Source of the DNA: a virus
Strand: one strand, 5' to 3'
Length of the DNA: 22,955 bases
IMG/VR virus record: IMGVR_UViG_3300009512_000085
Location: 1-22,955 of that record
How positions within the stretch are numbered: the first letter of the stretch is position 1; each line of letters opens with the position of its first letter. The notes under the pieces were generated by a model, which saw only the letters and a list, made by a program, of their open reading frames with translations, was not told the DNA's origin and made no database searches. Both the position numbers and the translations under genes were made by a program. Of this stretch, positions 1 through 21,466 are shown piece by piece.

Positions 1-1428
1 AGTACTCAAAACATTACGCTTGATTTCGAAATACCTACAGGTAATATGTATGTAGCCGGCTTAGGCTCTCATGCAATTGCTTTAGCAAACATACCTCATG
101 GTATAAAAGTTACTGTAGAATACAAAGCGTCGACCTCCTCTACTTGGAGTGCTTTTGGTTCTCAGCAGTTCACTGCCATCGCCAACTCAGACGCTAACCC
201 TCCTAGCTTAAATTCTTCTCAATACTGGATACAATCAGAAGGTTACTATACTCGAAGCGACAACACCCAGTATAGGTCAGAAGTAGTACAAGGGTATGGT
301 TGTATTACTTCTACAGGTAACTTGAAAGGCGTCATACAGAAGACCAACTTAGCGGCAGGTACTTATGACATACGGATTTCTAGTTCGACCGCAGGGAGCA
401 CCAGAGGTATTATTTATACCCCTAGAACCACTACTAGTTATACAGGTTCTGCTGGAAATGATAATGGATACGGCTACTATGGTGGAGGCGCACAAACTGC
501 TGCTAATGGACACTTACGTAATGCAAATCGAAGTATTACAATTAGTAGTGCGGCTGGAAGCAGTGGTACAGTAGGGCCAGGCTTTAATATAAACACAACC
601 GTAATACCTGCAGAAGTAAAAGATGCTTCTTATTCTATCACCTTCTTACCTCTGGCTGGAGGTACACTGACTGGTAACACATCTATTCACTCACTATCAA
701 ACCCTACACTAACACTTAAGAATACTGATACTACTATAAACGCAAATCAAGTTATAAGTACTGTAGAGTTTAGAGGTGCTGATGACGCGGGTAATATATT
801 AGCTGGTAACATTCAACAAGTTGCTTCAGGTACTTGGGGGCAAGGCACTTATGACTCTGACATGGTTTTCTCTACTAAGACAGGTGGCACTGGTGGCCCC
901 TTCACTGAAAAACTGCGCTTAGGTGCCACTGGGATTACAATACCTAATAAAATTATGCATAGTGGTGATACTGATACGCACATTGAGTTTGTAACTGACC
1001 GAATTAACTTTATAGCCGGCAATGCAACAATGATGAGTCTTGTAGAAGAGGCCACTGGATATGATTACGTAAAGATGGGTACAGGTAGTAATACTGTTAC
1101 AGTAAACCTTGCAGATGGCTCTTTAACTGCGTCAGGTAACATTACGGCATACTCTGACATTACACTAAAAGAAAATATTGAAGTAATAGATAATGCTCTC
1201 GATAAAGTTTGCGCTATCAGAGGAGTGACTTATAATAGGAAAGATAAAGATATCTCTGATAGACAAGCGGGAGTAATTGCTCAAGAGATAGAAAAAGTGT
1301 TACCAGAAGTAGTAATTACAGATGAAAATGGAATAAAGGCAGTAGCTTACGGAAACGTAGTAGGTCTTTTAGTAGAAGCAATCAAAGAACTCAAAGATGA
1401 GATAGAAGAATTAAAGAGGTCTAAGTAA
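1..1428 (+). CDS. Tail fibre protein with C-terminal S74 intramolecular chaperone (5' partial)
   Basis: The reading frame is open from base 1. The first ATG is at 46, but 15 sense codons precede it with no stop, so the gene very probably begins upstream of the window. Residue numbers here count from that ATG (460 aa). The body is rich in Gly, Ser and Thr with beta-type stretches, as in phage fibres. The end matches the intramolecular chaperone of endosialidase family (Peptidase S74). It has the self-cleavage motif SDITLKENI with Ser370, Asp371 and Lys375 (about nt 1153), then GVIAQEIEKVLPEVV and a final Glu/Lys-rich helix EAIKELKDEIEELKRSK. In this family the domain helps a trimeric fibre fold and then cuts itself off before the Ser. 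The next gene starts in a TAATG overlap. The role as a host-recognition fibre is an inference from the family; the S74 domain itself is clear. Confidence 0.85.
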   Translation, partial: STQNITLDFEIPTGNMYVAGLGSHAIALANIPHGIKVTVEYKASTSSTWSAFGSQQFTAIANSDANPPSLNSSQYWIQSEGYYTRSDNTQYRSEVVQGYGCITSTGNLKGVIQKTNLAAGTYDIRISSSTAGSTRGIIYTPRTTTSYTGSAGNDNGYGYYGGGAQTAANGHLRNANRSITISSAAGSSGTVGPGFNINTTVIPAEVKDASYSITFLPLAGGTLTGNTSIHSLSNPTLTLKNTDTTINANQVISTVEFRGADDAGNILAGNIQQVASGTWGQGTYDSDMVFSTKTGGTGGPFTEKLRLGATGITIPNKIMHSGDTDTHIEFVTDRINFIAGNATMMSLVEEATGYDYVKMGTGSNTVTVNLADGSLTASGNITAYSDITLKENIEVIDNALDKVCAIRGVTYNRKDKDISDRQAGVIAQEIEKVLPEVVITDENGIKAVAYGNVVGLLVEAIKELKDEIEELKRSK

Positions 1429-2382: not shown

Positions 2383-2721
2383 ATGAGCGCAGCCCGCTAC
2401 AACCTAGTTATCGACCAAGGTTCCGACTTTGCCGTAAACTTTACAGTCAACGACGATGGATCAGCTAAAAACCTGACAGGTTACTCTGCGCGTGCTCAAA
2501 TGAGGACAACAAAGTCCGCTACGTCAGTTGCTGCAACATTCGTCTGTACTATACCGACTCCAGCTAATGGAACAATTACATTGGCTTTACCAAATGCTAC
2601 AAGCACTAGTATGGCCGCAGGTAACTATGTATATGACTTAGAAATATTTACAGCAAGCAATGCGATAGTTACTAGACTGTTGCAGGGCTCCGTGACCTTG
2701 ACACAAGAGGTAACTCGATAA
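2383..2721 (+). CDS. Small virion-associated beta-sandwich-type protein, 112 aa
   Basis: The gene starts at ATG 2383, six bases after GGAGGA and about 14 bases after the predicted transcript start. The protein follows a pattern common among small tail-region proteins of tailed phages. It opens with a strand carrying IDQGSDFAVNFTV, then LTGYSARAQMRTT, then a GTITLALPNATS segment, then AAGNYVYDLEIF and the closing VTRLLQGSVTLTQEVTR. This looks like a single Ig-like or baseplate-adaptor fold of about 110 residues. No catalytic motif is visible. It ends in a TAATG overlap with the next gene. I am fairly sure it is a virion or tail-assembly protein; its exact position in the tail is not known. Confidence 0.6.
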   Translation: MSAARYNLVIDQGSDFAVNFTVNDDGSAKNLTGYSARAQMRTTKSATSVAATFVCTIPTPANGTITLALPNATSTSMAAGNYVYDLEIFTASNAIVTRLLQGSVTLTQEVTR

Positions 2722-3098: not shown

Positions 3099-4337
3099 AT
3101 GGCACAAACAATTAAAATTAAAAGAAGTACTGGAAATGGTAAGCCCTCATCAGTTGCACAAGGTGAGTTATTTTACTCGTATGGTACTGGAGGTACTTAC
3201 GGCAAAAAGCTCGCTATTGGTAACTCATCGGGCGGAACAGATACTCCCGAGATTATAGGTGGTTCTTACTATACGGGAATAGTAGATGGAGCAACTAACG
3301 CGAATACCGCAAGTAAGCTTGTTTTACGAGATGGCTCTGGTAACTTTAGCGCAGGAACTATTACAGCAACTTTATCGGGTAATGCTTCTACGGCTACGCT
3401 TTTGCAAAATGCTCGTAGTATTGGTGGTGTATCCTTTAACGGATCTGCATCTATTGACCTACCTGGTGTAAACGAAGCAGGTACTCAGAATACTACAGGT
3501 AATGCAGCTACTGCTACAATTCTTTCTACGGCTCGAGCCATTAACGGTGTAGCTTTTAATGGTTCTGCTCCTATTAGTATTGATACGGATGCAACCTCAG
3601 AAGGTTCTAGTAACTTATACTATACAGATGCGCGTACCTCTACTAGAGCGGATACTATTCTTAATCATAGTAACCACGGTAATATTACAGTAAGTAAAGT
3701 AGGTACTGAATTAAGATTTAGTGCAGCTAGTCAGTACGGTAACTCAGATGCTCGTACAGCTATTTCGGTAACTGACAGCGGAGGCGACGGTGCTTTAAGT
3801 TATAATAACAGCACTGGTGTAATTACATATACAGGCCCAAATGCTGCTCAAACTCGAGCACATTTGTCTGCCGGTACAGGTGTTGCATTCTCTGGTGGAG
3901 CATTCTCTATTGGACAGGCAGTTGCAACAACCTCTAATGTAACGTTCAATAACCTACAAGTAGATGGTACTCTTACTTCTGATGATATTACTTCTACGAA
4001 TATTTCGGTAGCAGGTAATGCTACAATCACAGGTAATCTTACGGTTCAAGGCACGACCACCACTGTAGACTCAACTACAGTAGCAATCGGCGATAACATC
4101 ATAACTCTGAATAATCAGTTAGCAGATGCTACTGCCCCTAGCTTAAATGCTGGTTTCACTGTCTATAGAGGAACAGGTACTAACTCAAAACCTTCGGCAT
4201 CCTTTCTTTGGGATGAGACCAATCACTATTGGACTGCGCAGGAAGGCGACACTGCCAACGTTACCTCCAAGGTACTAACTGCTAGCAACTTTGCGGCATC
4301 TTTCACAGGCATCATTGATGGCGGAACATTCAGCTAA
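3099..4337 (+). CDS. Tail fibre protein with anchor domain and repeated shaft modules, 412 aa
   Basis: The protein starts MAQTIKIKRSTG and continues with QGELFYSYG and KKLAIGN, the pattern of fibre N-terminal anchor domains that attach to the virion. The shaft follows. Residues 95-134 and 135-163 are two copies of a module with NA[SA]TAT, then AR[SA]I[GN]GV[SA]FNGSA, spaced by 40 residues. The motif SNLYYTDAR at 171-179 is frequent in phage long fibres. The C-terminal part has GNLTVQGTTTTVDSTTV, a fibre-type segment, then a domain with FTVYRGTGTNSKPSASFLWDE. It ends IIDGGTFS. A GGAG ribosome-binding site lies before the ATG at 3099. A role in host binding or tail decoration is inferred from these modules. 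No S74 chaperone end is present. Confidence 0.8.
   Translation: MAQTIKIKRSTGNGKPSSVAQGELFYSYGTGGTYGKKLAIGNSSGGTDTPEIIGGSYYTGIVDGATNANTASKLVLRDGSGNFSAGTITATLSGNASTATLLQNARSIGGVSFNGSASIDLPGVNEAGTQNTTGNAATATILSTARAINGVAFNGSAPISIDTDATSEGSSNLYYTDARTSTRADTILNHSNHGNITVSKVGTELRFSAASQYGNSDARTAISVTDSGGDGALSYNNSTGVITYTGPNAAQTRAHLSAGTGVAFSGGAFSIGQAVATTSNVTFNNLQVDGTLTSDDITSTNISVAGNATITGNLTVQGTTTTVDSTTVAIGDNIITLNNQLADATAPSLNAGFTVYRGTGTNSKPSASFLWDETNHYWTAQEGDTANVTSKVLTASNFAASFTGIIDGGTFS
3381..3587 (+). repeat. Two diverged copies of a 40-residue fibre shaft module
   Basis: Within the 412-aa fibre, residues 95-134 and 135-163 align with a spacing of 40 residues (120 bp). Shared positions include GNA-TAT, AR-I-GV-FNGSA and a following Ile/Asp pair; the second copy is shorter before the LYYTDAR segment. 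The DNA has diverged at third positions, so this is an old protein-level duplication rather than a fresh one. Confidence 0.6.
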
Positions 4338-4384: not shown

Positions 4385-4615
4385 ATGGCACAGACAATTA
4401 AATTAAAGCGCTCGTCTTCGGCGGGCGCTATCCCTGGCACAGGTGATTTAGCGTTAGGCGAAGTTGCTATCAATACTGCGGATGGACGTATGTATATGAA
4501 AGACGGAGCTAACGCTATCGTGTGGATCAACAGAACGTCAGAAATTACAGGAACCACTCCGCAAGCATCGGACGGAACAAATAAGCCCGTAGGGTATGTT
4601 TGGTATGTAGTCTAG
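4385..4615 (+). CDS. Stand-alone fibre-anchor-like domain, 76 aa
   Basis: This 76-aa protein is almost only an N-terminal fibre-anchor domain. It starts MAQTIKLKRSSSAGAIPGTG, then GDLALGEVAINTADGRMYMKD, a pattern found at the start of many phage fibres and of tropism-determinant proteins. It shares MAQTIK[IL]KRS with the 412-aa fibre upstream. After that it has only about 30 more residues, ending in GYVWYVV. It has a clear AGGAG ribosome-binding site. One base separates its stop from the ATG of the 1521-aa repeat protein. I infer that it is a small virion adaptor that helps attach or cap the next fibre. It could also be a remnant of a longer fibre whose shaft has moved to the next gene. Confidence 0.65.
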   Translation: MAQTIKLKRSSSAGAIPGTGDLALGEVAINTADGRMYMKDGANAIVWINRTSEITGTTPQASDGTNKPVGYVWYVV

Positions 4616-4616
4616 A

Positions 4617-7600
4617 ATGACTATTAAGGTTTGGAACGGGTCTGCAGTACAAGAACCTGAGCAAATAGTAGTTAAAGCTGTAGCGGGAACGATGCGGTTT
4701 GTAAACTATGTCGTCCAGAAAGTCACAGATGGCAGTCTGAATACTGTATGGAATGCTATTTATAATACTTCTAGAAGCACACAGACTTCTAACTCTACTG
4801 TCGGTTCTCAGAACACGTCTTTTGCTACAAGTAGAAGTACTGATGTATCGACAACAACGGGATATGATACTACCAAGGCCACAAGTAGAAACACTGCTAG
4901 TACTTATGTTACCACCTATAACACTACAGGAGGTACAAGTCGAAGTACTAGTACTACATATACTACTACGTTTGGCACTACTGCTTCTACCACTACCACG
5001 TATGTTAGTACTTATGATACTACCCGAACGACTACGATAGATACGTCTACTGCATTCACTACTACTTTTGGTACTTCTAACGCTACTACAACTGCATATA
5101 CTACTGCGTTTAATACTGCTACTACAAAAAGCACAACTACTGCGTTTACTACTACATACGCTACAAGTAGGAGCACTAACGTAGCTACTTCTACAGCATT
5201 TACTACTACCTACGCTACTACGCGTACTACAAATACTGTATTTACAACTACGTTCAACACTACTACTACAAAGTCAACTTCTACTTTGTATACTACTACT
5301 TTCAATACTTCAAAAAGTACTTTACGAAATACCACTACTACTTATACTACCTCTTTCAATACTAGTAAAAGTACTGTTACTACGTTTAACACAGAATTTG
5401 CAACAGGAACAAGTAGAGCTACGACTACTACTTATACCACTAATTATAACACAAGTCGAGTGACAACCTTAGCCACTACGACCACTTACACGACTTCGTA
5501 CAATACTAGCAGAAGTACTACTATTGATACTACTACTACTTTTAATACTACGACTACTCGTAGTACCACTACTACTTACACTACCTCTTATAATACCTCA
5601 AGAGCAACTTCTCGAACCACAACGAAAAGTACGACTACTACTTTTAATACCTCTAAGCTTACTTCTAAGGCGACTACTACTGTGTACAATACTCAGACAA
5701 GTAGAGGAACTAGTAAAAGCACTACAACCGTATATAATACTTCCAGAAGCACTAACAGAGGTACTAGCAGGTCGACGACTACAACATTTGCTACTGGCAC
5801 AACAAGAAGCACAACTACTGCGTTTATAACACAGACTAGTAAAAGTACTTCCAAAGCAACTACTTCCGTATACAACACTACTAGAGGTACGAGTAGAACT
5901 ACTAGTAAGTCTACTACTACTGCTTTTGCTACTGCTACAAATAGAAGTACGACTACTACGTTTAATACTAGTAGAGCCACCAGCAGAGCATCAAGCCGGT
6001 CTACAACTACTACTTTTGGAACAGCAACAAGTAGAAGCAGTACAACGAGTTTTAATACTACTACTACGTATACCACTACTAGAGCTTCTAATACTGTATT
6101 TACTACGAGTAGAGCTACGGGTACAAGTAGAGCTACTACTACTACGTTTACTACAGCCACGAATAGGGGCACTACCACTACGTACGTTACCAATACTGTA
6201 TATAACACTAGTAAAGCGACTACTACCACATTTGGTACTACTACTACGTTTGTTACCAGTAAGTCCAGTACTACTACATACAGCACAACTACTGCGTTTC
6301 TTACAAGTAAAGGTACTACTACCACATTCGGTACTACGACTACATTTGCGACTAGTAAAAGTACAACTACTACGTTTAATACTACTACTACGTTTAATAC
6401 TACTAAGAGTACTTCTACAGTCTATGTAACTACTACAACGAGAGGTACTACTACTTCTCGTACCACCACATTTGGTACTACTACATCAAGAGCCACTGCA
6501 GAAAGCAGAAGCACAACTACTTCTTTTAATACTAGTCGTACTACTACGTTTAATACTACTACTACGTTTACTACAGCTACATCTAAAAGCACCGCAGAGT
6601 CTAGAGCTACTTGGACAGCTTATAATACTAGTCGTACTACTACCTTTGGGACAAGCACTACTTTTGGCACAGCTACTTCTAAGACGACGGCAGAAAGCAG
6701 AAGCACAACTACTTCGTACAATACTAGTCGTGGTACTACGTTTAATACTACTACTACGTTTTATACTGGTACAGGTGCCTCTGCGAACAGGGTTACAAGT
6801 AGAACTACTACGTTTACTACAGCGACTAATTTTATTACTAGTCACAACACTGTATTTGGTAGGTTAACAAGTGCAAGCACAACTACTTCTTTTAGTACAC
6901 AATATACGACTTATTATTATTCTCGAAGCAATACTAGTAATGTAACAAGTAGGGCTACAAGTAGAGCTACGACTACTAGTTACTATACTGACGTACGAAA
7001 CCACTATACTAACAGAAGTACTGGTAGGGCCACCGCTACTAGTCGTAGTACTACTTATAGCACTTACTTCAGTACCTCATGGAATACTCTTACTAATAAG
7101 TCCACCGCTACTAGTCGTACTACTGTATTTGGTACCAGTAAGTCTACTACCACTCTTTATGGTACCACTACAGTCTATGCAACTAATACTGGAAGAACTA
7201 CAAATACTTCTCGTACTACTACGTATGGTACCAACAGGCTTACTACTACTGCTTATAGTACAACTACTACATTTGGTACTGCTACAAGCAGAGTAAGTGC
7301 AACCAGTCGTACTACTACATTCGGTACTAATAGGTCTACTACCACTGCTTATACTACTACTACTGCTTTTGTGACTGCGACTAGTCGTACTACCACATTC
7401 GGCACAACTACTGCTTTTGGAACAAATACTTCCAGAAGCACAACCTGTACCTATAGCACTAACAGAGCTACGTCTACGAGCAGAAGTACTACTAGTACCT
7501 ATGCCACGAATAGAGCTACTGCTACCAGCAGAGGCACCACCACTACGTACACCACTTCCAAAGGTACTATAGAGACTCGATCTACGACTACAGCTTATAA

Positions 7601-9182
7601 TACTAATAGAGCTACTTCTACCAGCAGAAGTACTACTAGTACCTATGCCACTAATAAAAATACTACTGAAACACGTAGTACTACTACTACCTTTGGCACA
7701 CTAACTAATAGGTCTACTAGCACTGCTTTTAATACTACTACTGCTTTTCTCACTAACAGAAGTACAACTACTACTTATAATACTAATAGAGCTACAGGCA
7801 CAAGCAGGGCTACAACTACTACTTTTGTAACTGCTACAAGTAAGGCAACGACTACGGCCTTTACTACTACCTTTACTACTACGTTCGCTACGAGTAAGGC
7901 TACTACTACGACGTTTAATACTACCACTACTCGCGCTACAACGACTACCTATACCACTGCGTTTAGTACTATATACAATACGTCTTTAAGTACAACGACT
8001 ACGTTTACTACCACCTTTGGTACAACAACTACTCGTGCTACTACTACTGCTTTCAATACTAATACTACGTTAGCAACCACTACTGCCTTTACTACCACCT
8101 TTACTACTACATTCGCCACGAGTAAAGCTACTAGCACTGCATACACTACTACTTTTGCAACTGCCACAAGCAAGTCAACTAGTACTACTTTTACTACTAC
8201 TTATAATACTAGTAAAAGCACTGTATCAACGTATACTACTGCGTTTAGTACTACCTTTGGCACAAGTAATGTTACTACAAAAGCAACTACTACTGCGTTT
8301 GCTACTGCAACAAGTCGTACTACTACAAGTACCTTTACTACTACTTTTGGTACGAGTAATATTACTGCCAAGTCGACAACTACTGCGTTTAGTACTACTT
8401 TTGGTACAAGTAATATTACTACTAAATCAACTACTACTAACTTTAATACTACTACTTCTCGTAGTACTACAAAAAATACTACTACGACCTTTGTGACAAG
8501 TAGGACTACTACTAACTCAACGGGTTGTACTTTTACTACTACTTACAGTACAAGTAATATTACTGCAAAAGCAACTACTACTGCGTTTTCAACTGCAACT
8601 TCGCGCTCAACTAATTATGATACTGCTACAACTTTTAATACTAGTAACATAACGACTAAGAGTACTTCAAGTGTATACAATACTGTTTTTAACACTAGCA
8701 AGGGTACAAGTAGAGCTACAACTTCGGTTTTCAATACAGGTACTAGCAGAGGTACTACTAAGTCGACAACTACTGCATACGATACCAGTAAAGGTACTAA
8801 TAGAGTCACCTCCTCAGCTTTTGTAACAGTATTTAATACAAATATTACCACTCAAAAAGCTACTACAACAGCTTTTGATACTAGTAATGTAACCGCTAAG
8901 GACACGACTACTGCTTTTAATACTACCTTTACAACCACAAAGAGTACACAGGTTACTACTAGCACTGCGTTTAGTACTATATACAATACTACTAACAGCA
9001 CTACCACTACTCGTACTACTACTTTTGACACAACTAGAGCTACGAATAAAACTACTACTACCACGTTTGGGACCAACACAGTTGTCTTTGAACGTGTCAC
9101 AAGTACTGGAGCAGAAACAGAAGTTTCTTCTGCTTCTGCACATAACTCACGATATTGGGATGGATCACAATGGACGGAATAA
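4617..9182 (+). CDS. Giant Thr/Ser-rich dipeptide-register repeat fibre, 1521 aa
   Basis: The start at ATG 4617 is one base after the previous stop. Three parts are visible. Residues 1-48 form an ordinary domain (VWNGSAVQEPEQIVVKAVAG, then NYVVQKVTDGSLNTVWN). Residues from about 49 to 1488 are low-complexity repeats built from short blocks such as TSRSTTTTFNT and YTTSYNTS. Residues about 1489-1521 form a distinct end (VVFERVTSTGAETEVSS and YWDGSQWTE). Phe, Tyr, Arg and Lys fall almost only on one parity of position, while small residues (Asn, Ser, Gly, Ala, Thr) fill the other, as expected for a two-faced beta strand. Basic residues far outnumber acidic ones in the repeat. Threonine codons vary freely among ACT, ACA, ACG and ACC, so the protein pattern is under selection. 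I infer an extended beta-rich fibre, possibly O-glycosylated; no known family is claimed. Confidence 0.8.
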   Translation: MTIKVWNGSAVQEPEQIVVKAVAGTMRFVNYVVQKVTDGSLNTVWNAIYNTSRSTQTSNSTVGSQNTSFATSRSTDVSTTTGYDTTKATSRNTASTYVTTYNTTGGTSRSTSTTYTTTFGTTASTTTTYVSTYDTTRTTTIDTSTAFTTTFGTSNATTTAYTTAFNTATTKSTTTAFTTTYATSRSTNVATSTAFTTTYATTRTTNTVFTTTFNTTTTKSTSTLYTTTFNTSKSTLRNTTTTYTTSFNTSKSTVTTFNTEFATGTSRATTTTYTTNYNTSRVTTLATTTTYTTSYNTSRSTTIDTTTTFNTTTTRSTTTTYTTSYNTSRATSRTTTKSTTTTFNTSKLTSKATTTVYNTQTSRGTSKSTTTVYNTSRSTNRGTSRSTTTTFATGTTRSTTTAFITQTSKSTSKATTSVYNTTRGTSRTTSKSTTTAFATATNRSTTTTFNTSRATSRASSRSTTTTFGTATSRSSTTSFNTTTTYTTTRASNTVFTTSRATGTSRATTTTFTTATNRGTTTTYVTNTVYNTSKATTTTFGTTTTFVTSKSSTTTYSTTTAFLTSKGTTTTFGTTTTFATSKSTTTTFNTTTTFNTTKSTSTVYVTTTTRGTTTSRTTTFGTTTSRATAESRSTTTSFNTSRTTTFNTTTTFTTATSKSTAESRATWTAYNTSRTTTFGTSTTFGTATSKTTAESRSTTTSYNTSRGTTFNTTTTFYTGTGASANRVTSRTTTFTTATNFITSHNTVFGRLTSASTTTSFSTQYTTYYYSRSNTSNVTSRATSRATTTSYYTDVRNHYTNRSTGRATATSRSTTYSTYFSTSWNTLTNKSTATSRTTVFGTSKSTTTLYGTTTVYATNTGRTTNTSRTTTYGTNRLTTTAYSTTTTFGTATSRVSATSRTTTFGTNRSTTTAYTTTTAFVTATSRTTTFGTTTAFGTNTSRSTTCTYSTNRATSTSRSTTSTYATNRATATSRGTTTTYTTSKGTIETRSTTTAYNTNRATSTSRSTTSTYATNKNTTETRSTTTTFGTLTNRSTSTAFNTTTAFLTNRSTTTTYNTNRATGTSRATTTTFVTATSKATTTAFTTTFTTTFATSKATTTTFNTTTTRATTTTYTTAFSTIYNTSLSTTTTFTTTFGTTTTRATTTAFNTNTTLATTTAFTTTFTTTFATSKATSTAYTTTFATATSKSTSTTFTTTYNTSKSTVSTYTTAFSTTFGTSNVTTKATTTAFATATSRTTTSTFTTTFGTSNITAKSTTTAFSTTFGTSNITTKSTTTNFNTTTSRSTTKNTTTTFVTSRTTTNSTGCTFTTTYSTSNITAKATTTAFSTATSRSTNYDTATTFNTSNITTKSTSSVYNTVFNTSKGTSRATTSVFNTGTSRGTTKSTTTAYDTSKGTNRVTSSAFVTVFNTNITTQKATTTAFDTSNVTAKDTTTAFNTTFTTTKSTQVTTSTAFSTIYNTTNSTTTTRTTTFDTTRATNKTTTTTFGTNTVVFERVTSTGAETEVSSASAHNSRYWDGSQWTE
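6498..6785 (+). repeat. Three tandem copies of a 96-bp (32-residue) unit
   Basis: Copies lie at 6498-6593, 6594-6689 and 6690-6785. At protein level they read AESRSTTTSFNTSRTTTF..., AESRATWTAYNTSRTTTF... and AESRSTTTSYNTSRGTTF..., each exactly 32 residues. The first and third are nearly identical in DNA over the first half. They are the clearest recent duplication in the gene and carry most of its rare Glu residues. The third copy decays near its end. Confidence 0.85.
7479..7651 (+). repeat. 29-bp identical direct repeats 144 bp apart
   Basis: Positions 7479-7507 and 7623-7651 are identical over 29 bases (starting AGCAGAAGTACTACTAG) and are spaced exactly 144 bp, or 48 residues. Both encode SRSTTSTYAT. 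The intervening DNA is similar but not identical, which suggests an older segmental duplication inside the Thr-rich gene. Confidence 0.7.
8346..8453 (+). repeat. Two tandem 54-bp (18-residue) units
   Basis: Units 8346-8399 and 8400-8453 encode FGTSNITAKSTTTAFSTT and FGTSNITTKSTTTNFNTT. Related single copies with SNVT or SNIT occur nearby. The 18-residue spacing is also the commonest distance between aromatic blocks in the first third of the same protein. Confidence 0.7.
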
Positions 9183-11364: not shown

Positions 11365-13245
11365 TTATATGATCTCACAAGCACCGCCAACACAGGCAAG
11401 TTCTTGAGATCCAGTTGTATTATCCTCTTTCTCAAATTGAGCGAGGTCTTCCCACTTTACATCTTGTGGCATTGCTGCCAATAGTTCTTCATATTTCTCA
11501 GCAGTAATATCTTCGTATGGAGCTTGCTGATAAATATGATCGCTTGTTGGAAGTAAACTAATACCCGAACATAGATCAAAATTATCCCAAATCCATTGAG
11601 CTACCTGTAGATACTCACTGTCCGTATAGTATACAGTTACACTAGGCTTATGTTCACACCAGTGGTTTTGGTACATCTTCCATAGAGCTAACTGCTCCAT
11701 AGCTCCTACTTCTTTCACACAAGTACTGTCTTCTGGCGCTTTAACCGGAAAGCTAAAGACTACCGAAGAGGGCGACATAACATCGTTCTCTACTGGGAAT
11801 CCTGCTTGCTCCATATAGAGTGCAAGTGGGTCTTTCTTGTCTGAACGTACTCTCCGAATGTAATGCTTAGAGAAGCGAGGATGAATCCCGGAAGCACTAT
11901 CAACAAGCTGAGAAACAGTGCCAGATGGCTTAACACAAGTAATAGCAACAGACTGATTAACACCAAGCTTTGCAGACCATTCTTTATTTGTTGCAATACT
12001 AACATCTCTCATCTCCTCTAGCCAGCCAGCTAGTTCTGTATTGTTAGGATCTCCGAGTACTGCGTGATCCATAATACCTGTTAAACTTACGCCCAATAGT
12101 GCTTCTTCTTCAGTGTTACGCTTCCAGCGCACCCGCAGATACCTAAAGTCCGTAAGAGTAGACTGCAAAGTACCAATAATGGTTGCCTTGCGTACTTTCT
12201 CTAGCAATGTTTCGAGCGTATCGTGTGCCCGTACTACTACTTCTGATAAGTTACAAAACTCATTACTACGGAGAATAATCTCAGAACAAGGGTTAGTACC
12301 GAAGTCATGAGTTGCGTCTCTACGACCATTACGTGCTGCAATCTTCTGAGCTGCTACTCGGCTAAACAAGCCACGCTCGCCAGCTTTAGACTCGTACAAG
12401 TTCTTCATCTCATTGAGATAGGCTTCAAAGTCTGGCTTCTCAGTATATGCTACAGAGTTGTTTGCTAGACGACGTTGGCCTTCATTTTCCCACCAAGCAC
12501 CGGACTTAGCTTTAGACATACGCTGATCAGAAAGATTTGACAGACTGATAAGAGCAGAACGACGTACACCGCCTACTACTACAATATCTGCAATCTTACA
12601 TACAACATCATGGCACTCAATACTTGTTAGCTTACGACCTGCTGCTTTCTGGAATATATTTACACAGAAGCGGAATAGGTCTTCTAAAGGCTCGGGGCCA
12701 GAGGCACGACCGCCAAATGTCTTAAGTCTAGCACCTGCTGGACGTACACGGCTCATGTCCCACTGAGGTAATTTACCTGCATAAAGCATGGCAATCAACT
12801 CACGGAAGGCACTTGCCCAGCCTAGCTTACTATCACTTACTACAATAGTGGAGCTTGTCTTGTGGAAAGTTTCGGCTACTTCTGGTAGCTTAGTAATAAA
12901 ATTACGTTCTACACTAAAGCCTACTCCAGTTCCGCACATCAACACATACATAAGCTCATCAAAAGCTCGTGGATGATCAATGTGTAAGTAACTACAGTTA
13001 AAGCCTGCTACGTTATCACGTTTAAGTGCTTCACCTGCTGTCATCATACAACGCATAGAAGGCATAACTTCTAAAGCTTGAATAGCGTTCCAAATTTCTT
13101 GACCTTCTTCATCGTTCAACTGTTCTCTTTCTTTAAAGAAATCAACATAACGACTGCAAGTCTCTTCCCACGTCTCACGACGACCTTCTTCTTCTAGCCA
13201 TCGTGCATATCGGCTCTTGTGTATAAAACTTTGATACTGATCCAT
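11365..13245 (-). CDS. nrdJ: Class II (adenosylcobalamin-dependent) ribonucleotide reductase, 626 aa
   Basis: This enzyme reduces ribonucleotides to deoxyribonucleotides with coenzyme B12, in one chain without a separate radical subunit. The active-site spacing matches the monomeric Lactobacillus leichmannii type. Cys84 (FNCSY) and Cys331 form the redox pair, and Asn318, Cys320 and Glu322 (NPCSE) are the radical site, with 11 residues between Cys320 and Cys331. The C-terminus has the CVGGAC pair (Cys618 and Cys623) used for re-reduction by thioredoxin-like proteins. The nucleotide loop PSGTVSQL is present. At 626 aa it is shorter than the roughly 740 aa of the bacterial enzyme, and it lacks an obvious N-terminal ATP cone. 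ATG 13245 overlaps the exonuclease stop by one base (TAATG), with GGAG ahead. It probably feeds phage DNA synthesis; a B12-making or B12-importing host is implied. Confidence 0.95.
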   Translation of the reverse strand: MDQYQSFIHKSRYARWLEEEGRRETWEETCSRYVDFFKEREQLNDEEGQEIWNAIQALEVMPSMRCMMTAGEALKRDNVAGFNCSYLHIDHPRAFDELMYVLMCGTGVGFSVERNFITKLPEVAETFHKTSSTIVVSDSKLGWASAFRELIAMLYAGKLPQWDMSRVRPAGARLKTFGGRASGPEPLEDLFRFCVNIFQKAAGRKLTSIECHDVVCKIADIVVVGGVRRSALISLSNLSDQRMSKAKSGAWWENEGQRRLANNSVAYTEKPDFEAYLNEMKNLYESKAGERGLFSRVAAQKIAARNGRRDATHDFGTNPCSEIILRSNEFCNLSEVVVRAHDTLETLLEKVRKATIIGTLQSTLTDFRYLRVRWKRNTEEEALLGVSLTGIMDHAVLGDPNNTELAGWLEEMRDVSIATNKEWSAKLGVNQSVAITCVKPSGTVSQLVDSASGIHPRFSKHYIRRVRSDKKDPLALYMEQAGFPVENDVMSPSSVVFSFPVKAPEDSTCVKEVGAMEQLALWKMYQNHWCEHKPSVTVYYTDSEYLQVAQWIWDNFDLCSGISLLPTSDHIYQQAPYEDITAEKYEELLAAMPQDVKWEDLAQFEKEDNTTGSQELACVGGACEII

Positions 13246-18342: not shown

Positions 18343-18382
18343 ATTATACCAAGATTTAACCATGTTGTCAAGAGTTATTTTT
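18343..18382 (-). promoter_or_regulatory. Consensus extended -10 sigma70-type promoter, shared upstream box
   Basis: On the minus strand, TTGACA is at 18371-18366 and TATAAT at 18348-18343, spaced by exactly 17 bp. The bases before the -10 read TGG, giving an extended -10 (TGnTATAAT). The 17 bases 18382-18366 (AAAAATAACTCTTGACA) are identical to those of the plus-strand promoter at 2323. It lies at the only gap in the minus-strand series and would drive the SSB, gp47, gp46, nuclease and reductase genes. Confidence 0.85.
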
Positions 18383-18770
18383 ATTTAGGTACAAAATTAA
18401 ATACCCGTCGTTTGAGAGCACTGCTGCTAAAGCGGTGTTCTCTTCTATTGAAGTATAGTTTTATACCTCGTATATCCTTGCCGGTAAACTCTTTAGACTT
18501 ATACTCTTCGCCTAGTATACGGATGTCTATCGGGTACATCTTTAGTATGTCTTCAAGGTCTTCCTCAGTCTCGTAAGGAATAATTTCGTCAACATACTTT
18601 ACGGCTTGCAACTGAGTATATCTTTCTACCAGCGTTTGTACGGGGTTCTTAACCCCCGATACTTGCAGTCCGCATATTAGCCAGTCACATTGCTCAGAAG
18701 CTTCTCGAAGCATTGCAACATGGCCTGCATGGAGTAAATCAAAAGTAGAACAAGTGAACCCAGTTATCAT
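18381..18770 (-). CDS. TagD-type cytidylyltransferase (glycerol-3-phosphate cytidylyltransferase-like), 129 aa
   Basis: This small nucleotidyltransferase joins CTP to a phosphorylated alcohol, classically glycerol 3-phosphate to give CDP-glycerol. It has the family motifs in order: GFTCSTFDLLHAGHVAML with the HxGH pair (His14 and His17), ERYTQLQAV at 49-57, RILGEEYK at 84-91 and the closing RREHRFSSSALKRRV that replaces the usual RTxGISTT loop. The ATG at 18770 overlaps the helicase stop in ATGA. A longer frame from TTG 18788 is less likely. At 129 aa it fits the TagD length. The exact substrate cannot be read from sequence and could be another phosphorylated polyol. It is the only nucleotidyltransferase in the replication series and hints at glycan or lipid modification. 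Confidence 0.85.
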   Translation of the reverse strand: MITGFTCSTFDLLHAGHVAMLREASEQCDWLICGLQVSGVKNPVQTLVERYTQLQAVKYVDEIIPYETEEDLEDILKMYPIDIRILGEEYKSKEFTGKDIRGIKLYFNRREHRFSSSALKRRVFNFVPK

Positions 18771-20050
18771 AGGTACTTCATATCCCAACCCTGTTTCATA
18801 TAGAACCCCACACGATTGGAAGCTTGTCTTCTAGCTGTGTTACCTTTCAGGTGAATATCTATTATAACAGGGTCTATCTTGCCTTCTTTCTTACGAATTA
18901 CTCTACCACAAAGCTGTGTAAGCAGTGGCTCATTGTTTACAGGTGTTGCGAGTATAAGACAGCTTAACGTATCTACTGATATACCCTCTGAGAAAATAGC
19001 TTGTGTTCCGTAAAGCACATTCTTATTTCCAGTAAGTATTTCTTCTATAAGCTTTTCTCTGTCTTCATGGGCAACTTCCCCTGTTACACATATTGACCTG
19101 TCTCCTGTTAGCTCAGAGCACGCTTTTAGAAAGCTAACTCTATCACTTACTACTAAAACTCTGTGACCTTTAGCCGCATAAGCTGCTGCTAACATTGCTA
19201 CTGTATGTCTGTACTCTTCATCGTTGGCTAACTTTGTTACTCTGTTAGCCCAAGGTATTTTTGCTCCGTCCATAAATCGTATTTCAGACGCTACAAGATG
19301 GACTGTAGGGGTCATATAGTTTTCTTTTGGTGGCTGAAATAGAGTATTACCAAAGTAATCTCTGAACACAACGTGTTTACCATCCTTTCTTTCTATAGTC
19401 CCTGATAGCCCTATCTTATATCTACAGTAATTTGTATCTAGTATCTTACTAAAGGTCGGACTACTAACATGATGCATCTCGTCTAGTATGATAGTGCCAA
19501 ACTCTTTTTGAATCTTGTCTACGTTTCGGTACAAAGTCTGAGTGTTCCCAATCACGATAGGAGCATCAAGTTCAAACTTTCCACTGCCTATGATGCCAGG
19601 TTTAAAACCGAAGACTTTCTCCACCTCTTTTGCCCATTGATTACGCAGAGATACAGTATGGGTAACAACAAGTGTTTTCTGTCCAAGCTTACCTGCAATA
19701 GCTAAACCTGTAAAAGTCTTTCCCCAACTGACCCATGCGTTGATTATGGCGTTATCTTCGATCTCGTCATAAACCTTCTGCTGGCTCTCCCGAAGAGGGA
19801 ACCTAAACTCGGGAAATTCTACAGGCTTGTTTACTCGCCTATCGACTATTTCGTAATTTGATGGTATCAAATCCGTACGCCCGATAGGTAACGAGACTAA
19901 CCCGTTACGAATAATGCCCATGTTCTTAATCATCTCTGGTGGATCTAATGGATTGTGCGTGGGAATAGCATAGGTAAGCTCTTTGTCGATCTTATCTTGC
20001 AATTCAGCAGTGCAATCCATGTAGATTCTATGACTTATGACTGCTTTCAT
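18767..20050 (-). CDS. SF2 DNA/RNA helicase, UvsW-like, 427 aa
   Basis: This is a superfamily 2 helicase that probably remodels branched DNA during recombination or resolves R-loops, as UvsW does in T4. Motifs are visible in the recA-like domains: motif I WGKT ending near residue 112, motif II DEMH at 190-193, motif III SGT at 216-218 and motif VI QLCGRVIRKK from 379. The motif I is unusual: where most members have a Gly-rich loop this one reads AWVSWGKT. I choose the ATG at 20050, which overlaps the SDR-like stop by one base; a TTG two codons earlier also exists. The protein follows the modification-type genes and precedes the cytidylyltransferase, so it sits in the middle of a mixed series. 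Confidence 0.88.
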   Translation of the reverse strand: MKAVISHRIYMDCTAELQDKIDKELTYAIPTHNPLDPPEMIKNMGIIRNGLVSLPIGRTDLIPSNYEIVDRRVNKPVEFPEFRFPLRESQQKVYDEIEDNAIINAWVSWGKTFTGLAIAGKLGQKTLVVTHTVSLRNQWAKEVEKVFGFKPGIIGSGKFELDAPIVIGNTQTLYRNVDKIQKEFGTIILDEMHHVSSPTFSKILDTNYCRYKIGLSGTIERKDGKHVVFRDYFGNTLFQPPKENYMTPTVHLVASEIRFMDGAKIPWANRVTKLANDEEYRHTVAMLAAAYAAKGHRVLVVSDRVSFLKACSELTGDRSICVTGEVAHEDREKLIEEILTGNKNVLYGTQAIFSEGISVDTLSCLILATPVNNEPLLTQLCGRVIRKKEGKIDPVIIDIHLKGNTARRQASNRVGFYMKQGWDMKYL

Positions 20051-20574
20051 TAGCAAGACGCTCTCATTGCTGCCTTAGCCGCCTGTACTTTCATATAATT
20101 TTCAGGTACTTGCATAGTAATATGCGGTATTTCCATTTCCTGTATCATAATGCTAACAATAGTATCAGCTATGGTCGTCCAGCGAAGACTTGCTATAGAA
20201 CGTAGAGCTACCGCGCCTAGATCTATAGTCGTTAGCTTACATCTTTTTTCTATGCAATTCCAGTGTAAGTTATTGGCATAATGGTTTAAAGCTGCTTTCT
20301 GAGCGGCATACATATACCCTTTTGAAATATTAGGTTGCACTGCACGAGAGGAGATGTTAAAAATTATCTTAGTGTTATCTCCTTTCCACTCGTTAAATAC
20401 ATACTCTAGTAATTCTACTTGCTTAAACCCAACGTGTGCATAGTTGATGAAGGCTCCGTACTGGCTGAGGTCTATCTTACCTTCGAGTACATCTTCAATA
20501 CGACAGGTATCACAAGGTAAAAGCATTGCTAGTGCCGAAAAAAGCGTACTCTTACCTGTTATTAGTGTTTTCAT
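20050..20574 (-). CDS. Short SDR-like NAD(P)-binding protein, 174 aa
   Basis: The protein resembles short-chain dehydrogenases/reductases. It starts MKTLITGKSTLF, like the first strand and cofactor loop. It then has NYAHVGF, a catalytic-type segment NISSRAVQP (Ser75/Ser76) and the YxxxK motif YAAQK (Tyr89, Lys93), all in the expected order. It is short: typical members have about 240 residues. The first loop lacks the usual TGxxxGxG glycines, and the C-terminal substrate lobe is reduced. A perfect AAGGAG ribosome-binding site lies four bases before the ATG, and the gene overlaps the radical SAM gene by 23 bp. It could be a working mini-SDR for a nucleotide sugar or polyol, or a degenerate binder. 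The substrate is unknown. Confidence 0.65.
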   Translation of the reverse strand: MKTLITGKSTLFSALAMLLPCDTCRIEDVLEGKIDLSQYGAFINYAHVGFKQVELLEYVFNEWKGDNTKIIFNISSRAVQPNISKGYMYAAQKAALNHYANNLHWNCIEKRCKLTTIDLGAVALRSIASLRWTTIADTIVSIMIQEMEIPHITMQVPENYMKVQAAKAAMRASC

Positions 20575-21466
20575 AATGCTCCTTTACTAGGTCGAACGAT
20601 GGTTTTCCAAAGAGTGAACCATCTACGCTACATTTATTGCAGGGAGACATTGAGCGGTCTCCTCTCATTAGTTTTTTACGAATTCGGGTCATAGGCTTAC
20701 TGAACCAAACGTCATAAAGAGAATCCTGTAGTAAGTTACCTACAACGTGCTCCCTGCCCCAATCGTTACTGCAAAACAGAACATCTCCATTCCAATCAAC
20801 AAACATTTTATAGAAAGGGTAGTGACAAGGTTTTCCCTGTAGGGCAGTTACACTGCTTTCCTCTACTCCTACCCAATCCATAACTCCGCTTCGATTGTTC
20901 AAAATTAATCCGTGTTTCTCAAAGTCTCCCCAGTGCATACGGTACTTGTAATGCTCTTGAGGAATATCTTTCATAATCACATCAAAGTGTTCCATCTGCT
21001 CGATACCATCATAAAGATTAATGTACAGTAAATCGAGACCCCGTAGCGAGATCAAATCTCTAGCATACTTAGCGGTTAATCTATCCCCGTTAGTATTACA
21101 CTCTATAGTAGCTTCAGGTAGATTCTCTCTGAAGACTTGTACTATTTCGGGAAACACTGGGTTAAGTAGATTCTCTCCAAAACCACTAAGAGATATCTTG
21201 CCCTTGAAGTCGTTAGCCGCAAGCTCTTTAGCAATAGTAGCAGCACCTTTTACAGTCATGTGAAGATTTCTGTTAGAAAATACTTCTGGATCGTGTCGAG
21301 GGCAAAATACACAGGTTCTATTACACAGCTCAGTAGTATTTAGCTCTACTGTTAGGATAGACCTTAGTGGAGAATCTTTTGTATTCTTTGACCAATGCAG
21401 GGCTTCTTGGTTTCTTCTGTGTTCCAAAAAGTCATGCTGGTCTACTGCTACTATTGGTATTTTCAT
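20552..21466 (-). CDS. Radical SAM/SPASM protein, 304 aa
   Basis: The radical SAM core has CxxxCxxC at Cys48, Cys52 and Cys55 (CNRTCVFC), which binds a 4Fe-4S cluster and cleaves S-adenosylmethionine to start radical chemistry. Supporting motifs are a strand ISLSGFGENLLNP (the GGE-type segment) and IECNTNG. The C-terminal region is a SPASM-type domain with Cys214, Cys232, Cys276 and Cys279 (CHYPF, DWNGDVLFCSNDW, CNKCSVDG) for extra clusters. Such enzymes modify peptides, sugars or alcohols. The ATG at 21466 overlaps the PhoH stop (ATGA) and the gene overlaps the SDR by 23 bp. The domain call is firm. The substrate is unknown, but the neighbours (SDR, cytidylyltransferase) hint at a small molecule or glycan. 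Confidence 0.88.
   Translation of the reverse strand: MKIPIVAVDQHDFLEHRRNQEALHWSKNTKDSPLRSILTVELNTTELCNRTCVFCPRHDPEVFSNRNLHMTVKGAATIAKELAANDFKGKISLSGFGENLLNPVFPEIVQVFRENLPEATIECNTNGDRLTAKYARDLISLRGLDLLYINLYDGIEQMEHFDVIMKDIPQEHYKYRMHWGDFEKHGLILNNRSGVMDWVGVEESSVTALQGKPCHYPFYKMFVDWNGDVLFCSNDWGREHVVGNLLQDSLYDVWFSKPMTRIRKKLMRGDRSMSPCNKCSVDGSLFGKPSFDLVKEHYENTNNR

Follow-up and report, generated by a model that had tools for sequence, protein, structure and literature searches.

A gene that occupies positions 4617..9182 (+) of the window (the whole stretch of DNA analysed, 22,955 bases, which is an entire IMG/VR record) encodes a protein of 1521 amino acids organized as a complementary palindrome about residue 771.5. 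Its two arms are mirror images of each other and complementary, with aromatic residues opposite basic ones and threonine opposite threonine. We consider it likely that this protein serves a lambda-like marine siphophage as a side tail fibre and that it consists of one very long antiparallel β hairpin.

The open reading frame is the largest of the window, as the preliminary description of this DNA had stated. Threonine accounts for 648 of the 1521 residues (43%), histidine for only three, and the sequence is of low complexity. Five parts can be distinguished, all on the plus strand. The N-cap (residues 1-48, MTIKVWNGSAVQEPEQ...VWNAI; 4617..4760) is conserved, with 49-96% identity in alignments of relatives, and lies outside the pairing. 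It is followed by arm 1 (residues 49-748; 4761..6860), which keeps a strict two-residue register, and by a tip (residues 749-794; 6861..6998) where pairing stops and which holds the mirror axis and the motif TYYYSRS. Arm 2 (residues 795-1488; 6999..9080) is the mirror complement of arm 1. The C-cap (residues 1489-1521, VVFERVTSTG...AHNSRYWDGSQWTE; 9081..9179) is also conserved and outside the pairing. Long antisense open reading frames are present within the gene, for example at 5693-6325 (-); its Thr/Phe/Arg codon composition seems to produce them incidentally.

Two arms of complementary residues

The preliminary description had reported that the large residues of the repeat keep to one parity of position. 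This alternation is real. For the big residues (F, Y, W, R and K) of the region 49-1488, autocorrelation reaches 2.24 and 2.42 times expectation at lags 4 and 6 and falls to 0.06-0.16 of the expected value at each of the odd lags through 23. Lag 2, where the signal had been predicted, is the wrong place to look: it is itself depleted (0.06 times) because a Thr nearly always separates the big residues on their own face. A two-state fit yields just two long in-phase blocks, of 745 and 700 residues, and assigns 265 big residues to face A versus 7 to face B. Successive big residues are spaced by 6 residues (123 times) or 4 residues (114 times), the intervening positions of that face being occupied by Thr, and the even distances noted earlier between aromatic blocks follow from these steps. 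The parity claim is correct, with the qualification that the register is not the same from end to end: parity changes once, close to the middle (mirror axis 771.5). This single phase change near the midpoint, found in the window protein and in its relatives, suggested a fold-back.

Face A carries almost all of the Arg and Lys and few acids, and face B consists of small, uncharged residues. Selection at the protein level, also proposed earlier, is supported by the divergence of the two faces: in comparisons with three relatives, 16-21% of the sites differ on face A versus 40-48% on face B, and conserved Thr residues use a different codon in 54-66% of cases on both faces alike. Class autocorrelation in the arms of the giant proteins peaks at 16, 32 and 48 residues (60, 120 and 180 in the relative L038), and indels in these arms are often 16 residues long. 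The peaks may reflect module duplication or a helical repeat.

The protein was scanned for mirror relationships by scoring every register i+j = const. In the window protein, a gapless single register places residue i opposite residue 1543-i (1-based numbering). Among the 712 mirror pairs, 117 of the 136 big residues in arm 1 stand opposite another big residue. When the order of the 4/6-residue units in arm 2 is shuffled, the count drops to 28.2 +/- 9.7, and the highest value in 5,000 shuffles is 58. The encounters are complementary, with 113 aromatic:basic pairs, one aromatic:aromatic and one basic:basic. Outside the tip, 114 of the 116 Arg and Lys residues face an aromatic; the proportion is similar in five further giants (106-136 of 110-138) and weaker in L038 (130/154). 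About a fifth of the big residues have no aromatic:basic partner, and the unpaired aromatics of the window protein mostly face Asn, Val, Ile or Leu. Thr:Thr mirror pairs number 229, versus 142 expected.

The aromatic:basic pairs are divided into F:R (61), Y:K (25), F:K (15) and Y:R (12). The preference for F-R and Y-K goes beyond local composition in the six window-type giants (0/2,000 shuffles in five of them and 1/2,000 as extreme in the sixth), and does not in the distant L038. The side that carries the aromatic partner varies, being arm 1 in 54 pairs and arm 2 in 59. The register stands out with 111 pairs (net), no other register in a range of 200 having more than 46; secondary peaks at +/-48 are due to the autocorrelation at 48. 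A search for a second register, which would mark a neighbouring strand in a bundle, found none. The four other proteins of the window that were scanned have no dominating mirror register (z 2.6-2.7).

A DNA inverted repeat or an RNA hairpin was considered as the cause of the protein pattern and rejected, as the arms are not reverse-complementary. Reverse complementarity of the DNA at mirror positions is 0.405 versus 0.368 for random pairs, a trace to be expected from Phe TTT standing against Lys AAA. The parity flips at the midpoint because the halves are mirror-image and residue-complementary, and the alternation is a by-product of this stronger feature, the complementary palindrome. The preliminary description had overlooked this feature, which would provide the strand with a partner in the other half of its own chain.

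Relatives and compensatory evolution

The whole protein, the N-cap and the C-cap served as queries to gather relatives from contigs of uncultured viruses. Over a size range of 230-2,084 amino acids, these relatives have a single dominant mirror register. The register n+20 (0-based) is shared by all eight complete giants of the window type (n=1408-1781), and the motif TYYYSRS near the axis is common to the window protein and its giant relatives. The z-score of the best register is at least 4.9 in 49 of the 51 putatively complete proteins, many of which are close relatives and do not represent 49 independent cases. No clear mirror register was found in L014 and L086. Copies truncated by the contig end serve as a natural negative control, and in general none of their registers dominates.

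Short relatives (230-322 amino acids) have loop-like sequences at the axis, such as NLPGKGGGS, ADENTQGN or DGK. Subfamilies differ in their caps, and along with the caps the register offset changes (13, 14-15 or 18-21). One subfamily (L108, L109, L102, L121 and L119) combines the N-cap MA(I/L)Y(V/I)NDSGTLRQI with strongly acidic tips, for example EEENEDSEGE. At L015, L026 and L046, two paralogous genes for short putative hairpins stand within a few kilobases of each other and differ in their tip loops.

The arms evolve together. Between L003 and L006, indels of 32, 14, 12 and 76 residues occur in both arms; those of arm 2 have the same lengths as those of arm 1 and lie at the mirror places or no more than a few residues away. 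Comparison of L005 with L008 revealed 86 aromatic:basic pairs kept and six reversed, with none in which one partner was lost; other pairwise comparisons gave 0-5 reversals and 0-10 single losses. Compensation between paired residues is thus strong but not absolute. In a panel of ten proteins, the best fit of each arm 1 is with its own arm 2 (58-135), and between subfamilies the arms match only at noise level (9-26).

Some relatives have two registers. The 1525-residue proteins of L096 and L098 (gene from 1537) have registers 6 apart (21 and 15), which suggests a 6-residue bulge in one arm. In a short relative, L024:375-1148, the arms are unequal and two registers 16 apart compete (n+14 at the base and n-2 at the tip). 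Small mismatches are therefore tolerated, and the unequal arms of L024 may be useful for learning how much.

The proposed hairpin and its alternatives

A periodicity of two residues combined with i+j = const is the signature of antiparallel β strands, and it is for this reason that a giant hairpin is proposed. The two arms, of about 700 residues each, would pair as antiparallel strands. Face A would be formed by F:R and Y:K cross-strand pairs, of the cation-π type, together with Thr:Thr pairs. This face probably points outward, burial being unlikely since it holds nearly all the Arg and Lys and few acids; the small uncharged residues of face B would pack inward into a tight core. The irregular order of the 4/6 steps and the side that carries the aromatic may together serve as an address that specifies one good register: as the steps are irregular and the aromatic side varies, a slipped register loses most pairs. 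A unique register would let a 700-residue arm zip without slipping.

Both termini would form the base on the virion, with the N-cap as the attachment end and the C-cap beside it, and the 46-residue central tip would meet the host. The tip would stand about 230 nm from the base (700 residues x 0.33 nm), so that the fibre would be longer than the tail. Hairpins of several chains may bundle; by analogy with T4 gp37 and lambda Stf we would guess three, with six strands, a number to which the sequence itself lends no support. In a wider sense, the protein is probably a 'duplex', the amino-acid analogue of a self-complementary nucleic-acid hairpin: its halves would recognize each other by an F:R, Y:K, T:T code set to an irregular rhythm of 4 and 6 residues. 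It would evolve through mirrored indels and substitutions that compensate each other, and the length of each arm would be tuned between about 90 and about 1,000 residues.

Structure prediction by AlphaFold2 gave mean pLDDT values of 34.9 for residues 600-943 and 36.4 for the 290-residue relative L050. In the first model, pLDDT exceeds 50 only in a hairpin (152-168/175-193) whose turn matches the axis (172.5 in the segment numbering); in the second, only in the strands 41-61 and 244-261, which fit the register i+j = 307. Both models agree with a hairpin, at a confidence too weak for them to count as evidence.

From the mirror register by itself one cannot tell whether the pairing takes place within one chain, in an antiparallel dimer or in a domain-swapped bundle. 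An antiparallel homodimer, in which two chains pair head to tail over their full length and the centre is a dimer axis and not a tip, satisfies it equally by pairing between chains. We nevertheless regard this arrangement as improbable: the centre is loop-like in the short forms (PGKGGG, ADENTQG, DGK), pairing in the window protein stops there for 46 residues, and the conserved N- and C-caps suit one base better than two distant ends. Tail fibres normally show rotational symmetry, and the two-ended symmetry of such a dimer would be unusual among them.

The remaining alternatives treat the pattern as secondary or as a by-product. The preliminary description had suggested, among other forms, a solenoid. 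For a monomeric three-sided β solenoid with coils of 14, 16 or 18 residues one may cite the identity of the aromatic, which recurs every third unit (r 0.29-0.45 in the giants), and the class autocorrelation peaks at 16, 32 and 48 residues; yet stacked sides would need unit lengths that repeat at lag 3, where no correlation is seen (r about 0). As such a fold leaves the complementary mirror register unexplained and gives no reason for aromatic:basic complementarity, mirrored indels or arm-specific matching, we hold it to be very improbable. We give even less credit to an unstructured or mucin-like Thr-rich spacer whose pattern is a by-product of DNA repeat expansion. The low complexity of the protein, with its 43% Thr, the low AlphaFold confidence and the 16-residue indel modules would all suit a spacer, but repeat expansion copies sequence in the forward direction, which cannot yield a protein that is reversed and class-complementary; the mirror positions do not form an inverted repeat in the DNA, face A changes at far fewer sites than face B (see above), and paired residues reverse together. 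The one-chain hairpin remains our preferred reading, and the part of the preliminary description that pointed to an extended two-faced β strand without a named fold is supported, as the fibre has no PHROG match, no Pfam match above the cut-off and no sequence match in the PDB.

Genome context, novelty and comparison with known fibres

The fibre gene lies downstream of tail-fibre genes and upstream of replication and metabolism genes. The gene at 1..1428 (+) is truncated by the edge of the window and encodes the C-terminal portion of a tail fibre, whose best matches are distal long tail fibre families (phrog_11011, E=2e-39). It is followed by a relative of the L-shaped tail fibre assembly family (2383..2721, +; phrog_3304, E=7e-20, and phrog_1084) and by a tail-fibre-like structural protein of the same module (3099..4337, +; phrog_6722 and others). 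A gene of 76 amino acids (4385..4615, +; phrog_32294, phrog_17885 and others) ends just upstream of the fibre gene; its matches are confined to the extreme N-termini (first 40-65 residues) of several large tail-fibre and baseplate families. It looks like a free-standing fibre N-terminus and may be an adaptor. Further downstream, 11365-13245 encodes a B12-dependent ribonucleotide reductase that shares about 60% identity with its counterparts in cultured phages, e.g. Roseobacter phages. Among the replication genes are also an RfaE-like nucleotidyltransferase (18381-18788, PHROG match) and a protein that appears radical-SAM-like by eye (20552-21466).

The related 72.9-kb contig of L008 carries genes for the terminase, portal, capsid, major tail protein, a 1081-residue tape measure, minor tail proteins and J. 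No sheath gene was found in it, and it encodes a lambda-like siphophage tail. Its giant gene is located downstream of J and other fibre genes, and a Peptidase_S74 match is found in the module that corresponds to the tail-fibre module of the window. The giant gene is thus placed within the tail-fibre module of a tailed phage, and it is this gene order that suggests its location on the virion.

The fibre has no match in PHROGs at E<=0.1 and none in Pfam above the cut-off, the only trace being a 13-residue sub-threshold match to DUF2510 at the C-terminus. Searches of the PDB with phmmer and with a profile were empty at E<=1. No relative was found in GTDB genomes with the N-cap, or in cultured phages with the whole protein, the N-cap or the C-cap; as BLAST masks low-complexity sequence (and misses the window's own record when queried with its own protein), the result for cultured phages holds for the non-repetitive caps and not for the repeat region. 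Weak N-cap-like matches in Pectobacterium phage ZF40, a Burkholderia phage and pelagiphage HTVC023P proved to be short tail-associated proteins without Thr repeats and were discarded.

A role as phage tail fibre is ordinary and not new. The sequence organization has no known counterpart as far as the open-access literature shows: no family with a self-complementary residue code was found there, nor any precedent among palindromic proteins, Thr-rich fibres or self-complementary hairpins, and an earlier report elsewhere is possible. 'Tentaclins', returned by the β-hairpin search, are C-lectin/Ig proteins and unrelated. If the proposed reading is true, these fibres hold a natural residue-pairing code for β strands, and show how a very long strand finds a single register without slipping. 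The code would be readable from sequence and testable, because each protein offers more than 100 independent pairs and the relatives provide natural compensatory changes. It would also supply protein design with a rule for addressable β ribbons of chosen length, and would explain widespread, unannotated marine phage fibres that are missed by current profiles and by AlphaFold.

Designed model β hairpins are short peptides with cross-strand aromatic:cationic pairs. They share the pair chemistry proposed for the window protein, in which the pairs would run over about 700 residues. The triple-stranded β-helix of T4 gp5 has an octapeptide repeat (PMC3004832), and there, as in the window protein, an even-length repeat holds residue parity along a long fibrous stretch; gp5, however, is a three-start intertwined helix with no mirror axis, whereas the steps of the window protein are irregular, of 4/6 residues. 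The C-terminus of lambda Stf is related to the gp37 needle by HHpred (PMC7291167). The likeness to Stf lies in the tail module, since the L008 contig has a lambda-like module that ends in J and is followed by fibre genes; the sequence of the window fibre itself matches no PHROG.

The tip of T4 gp37 (domains D10-D11) offers a closer parallel. Its base domain D10 is made of residues 811-881 and 1010-1026, the chain running out to the tip and back, and the needle carries iron sites (PMC6957217); the needle is elongated, six-stranded and antiparallel (PMC7291167). The tip of the T4 fibre binds the receptor. The window protein, with its mirror axis at the middle and conserved caps at its two ends, may likewise send its chain out to a tip and back. 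No sequence relation between the two was found. They differ in that T4 gp37 has seven HxH motifs in residues 881-1010 and the window protein none, and in that the needle, with eight aromatic and five basic residues, shows no pairing code (best 2 pairs, z 3.1). The window protein also has arms roughly ten times as long as those of the T4 needle. Without claiming membership, we regard the gp37 needle as the nearest thing to how this fibre may work.
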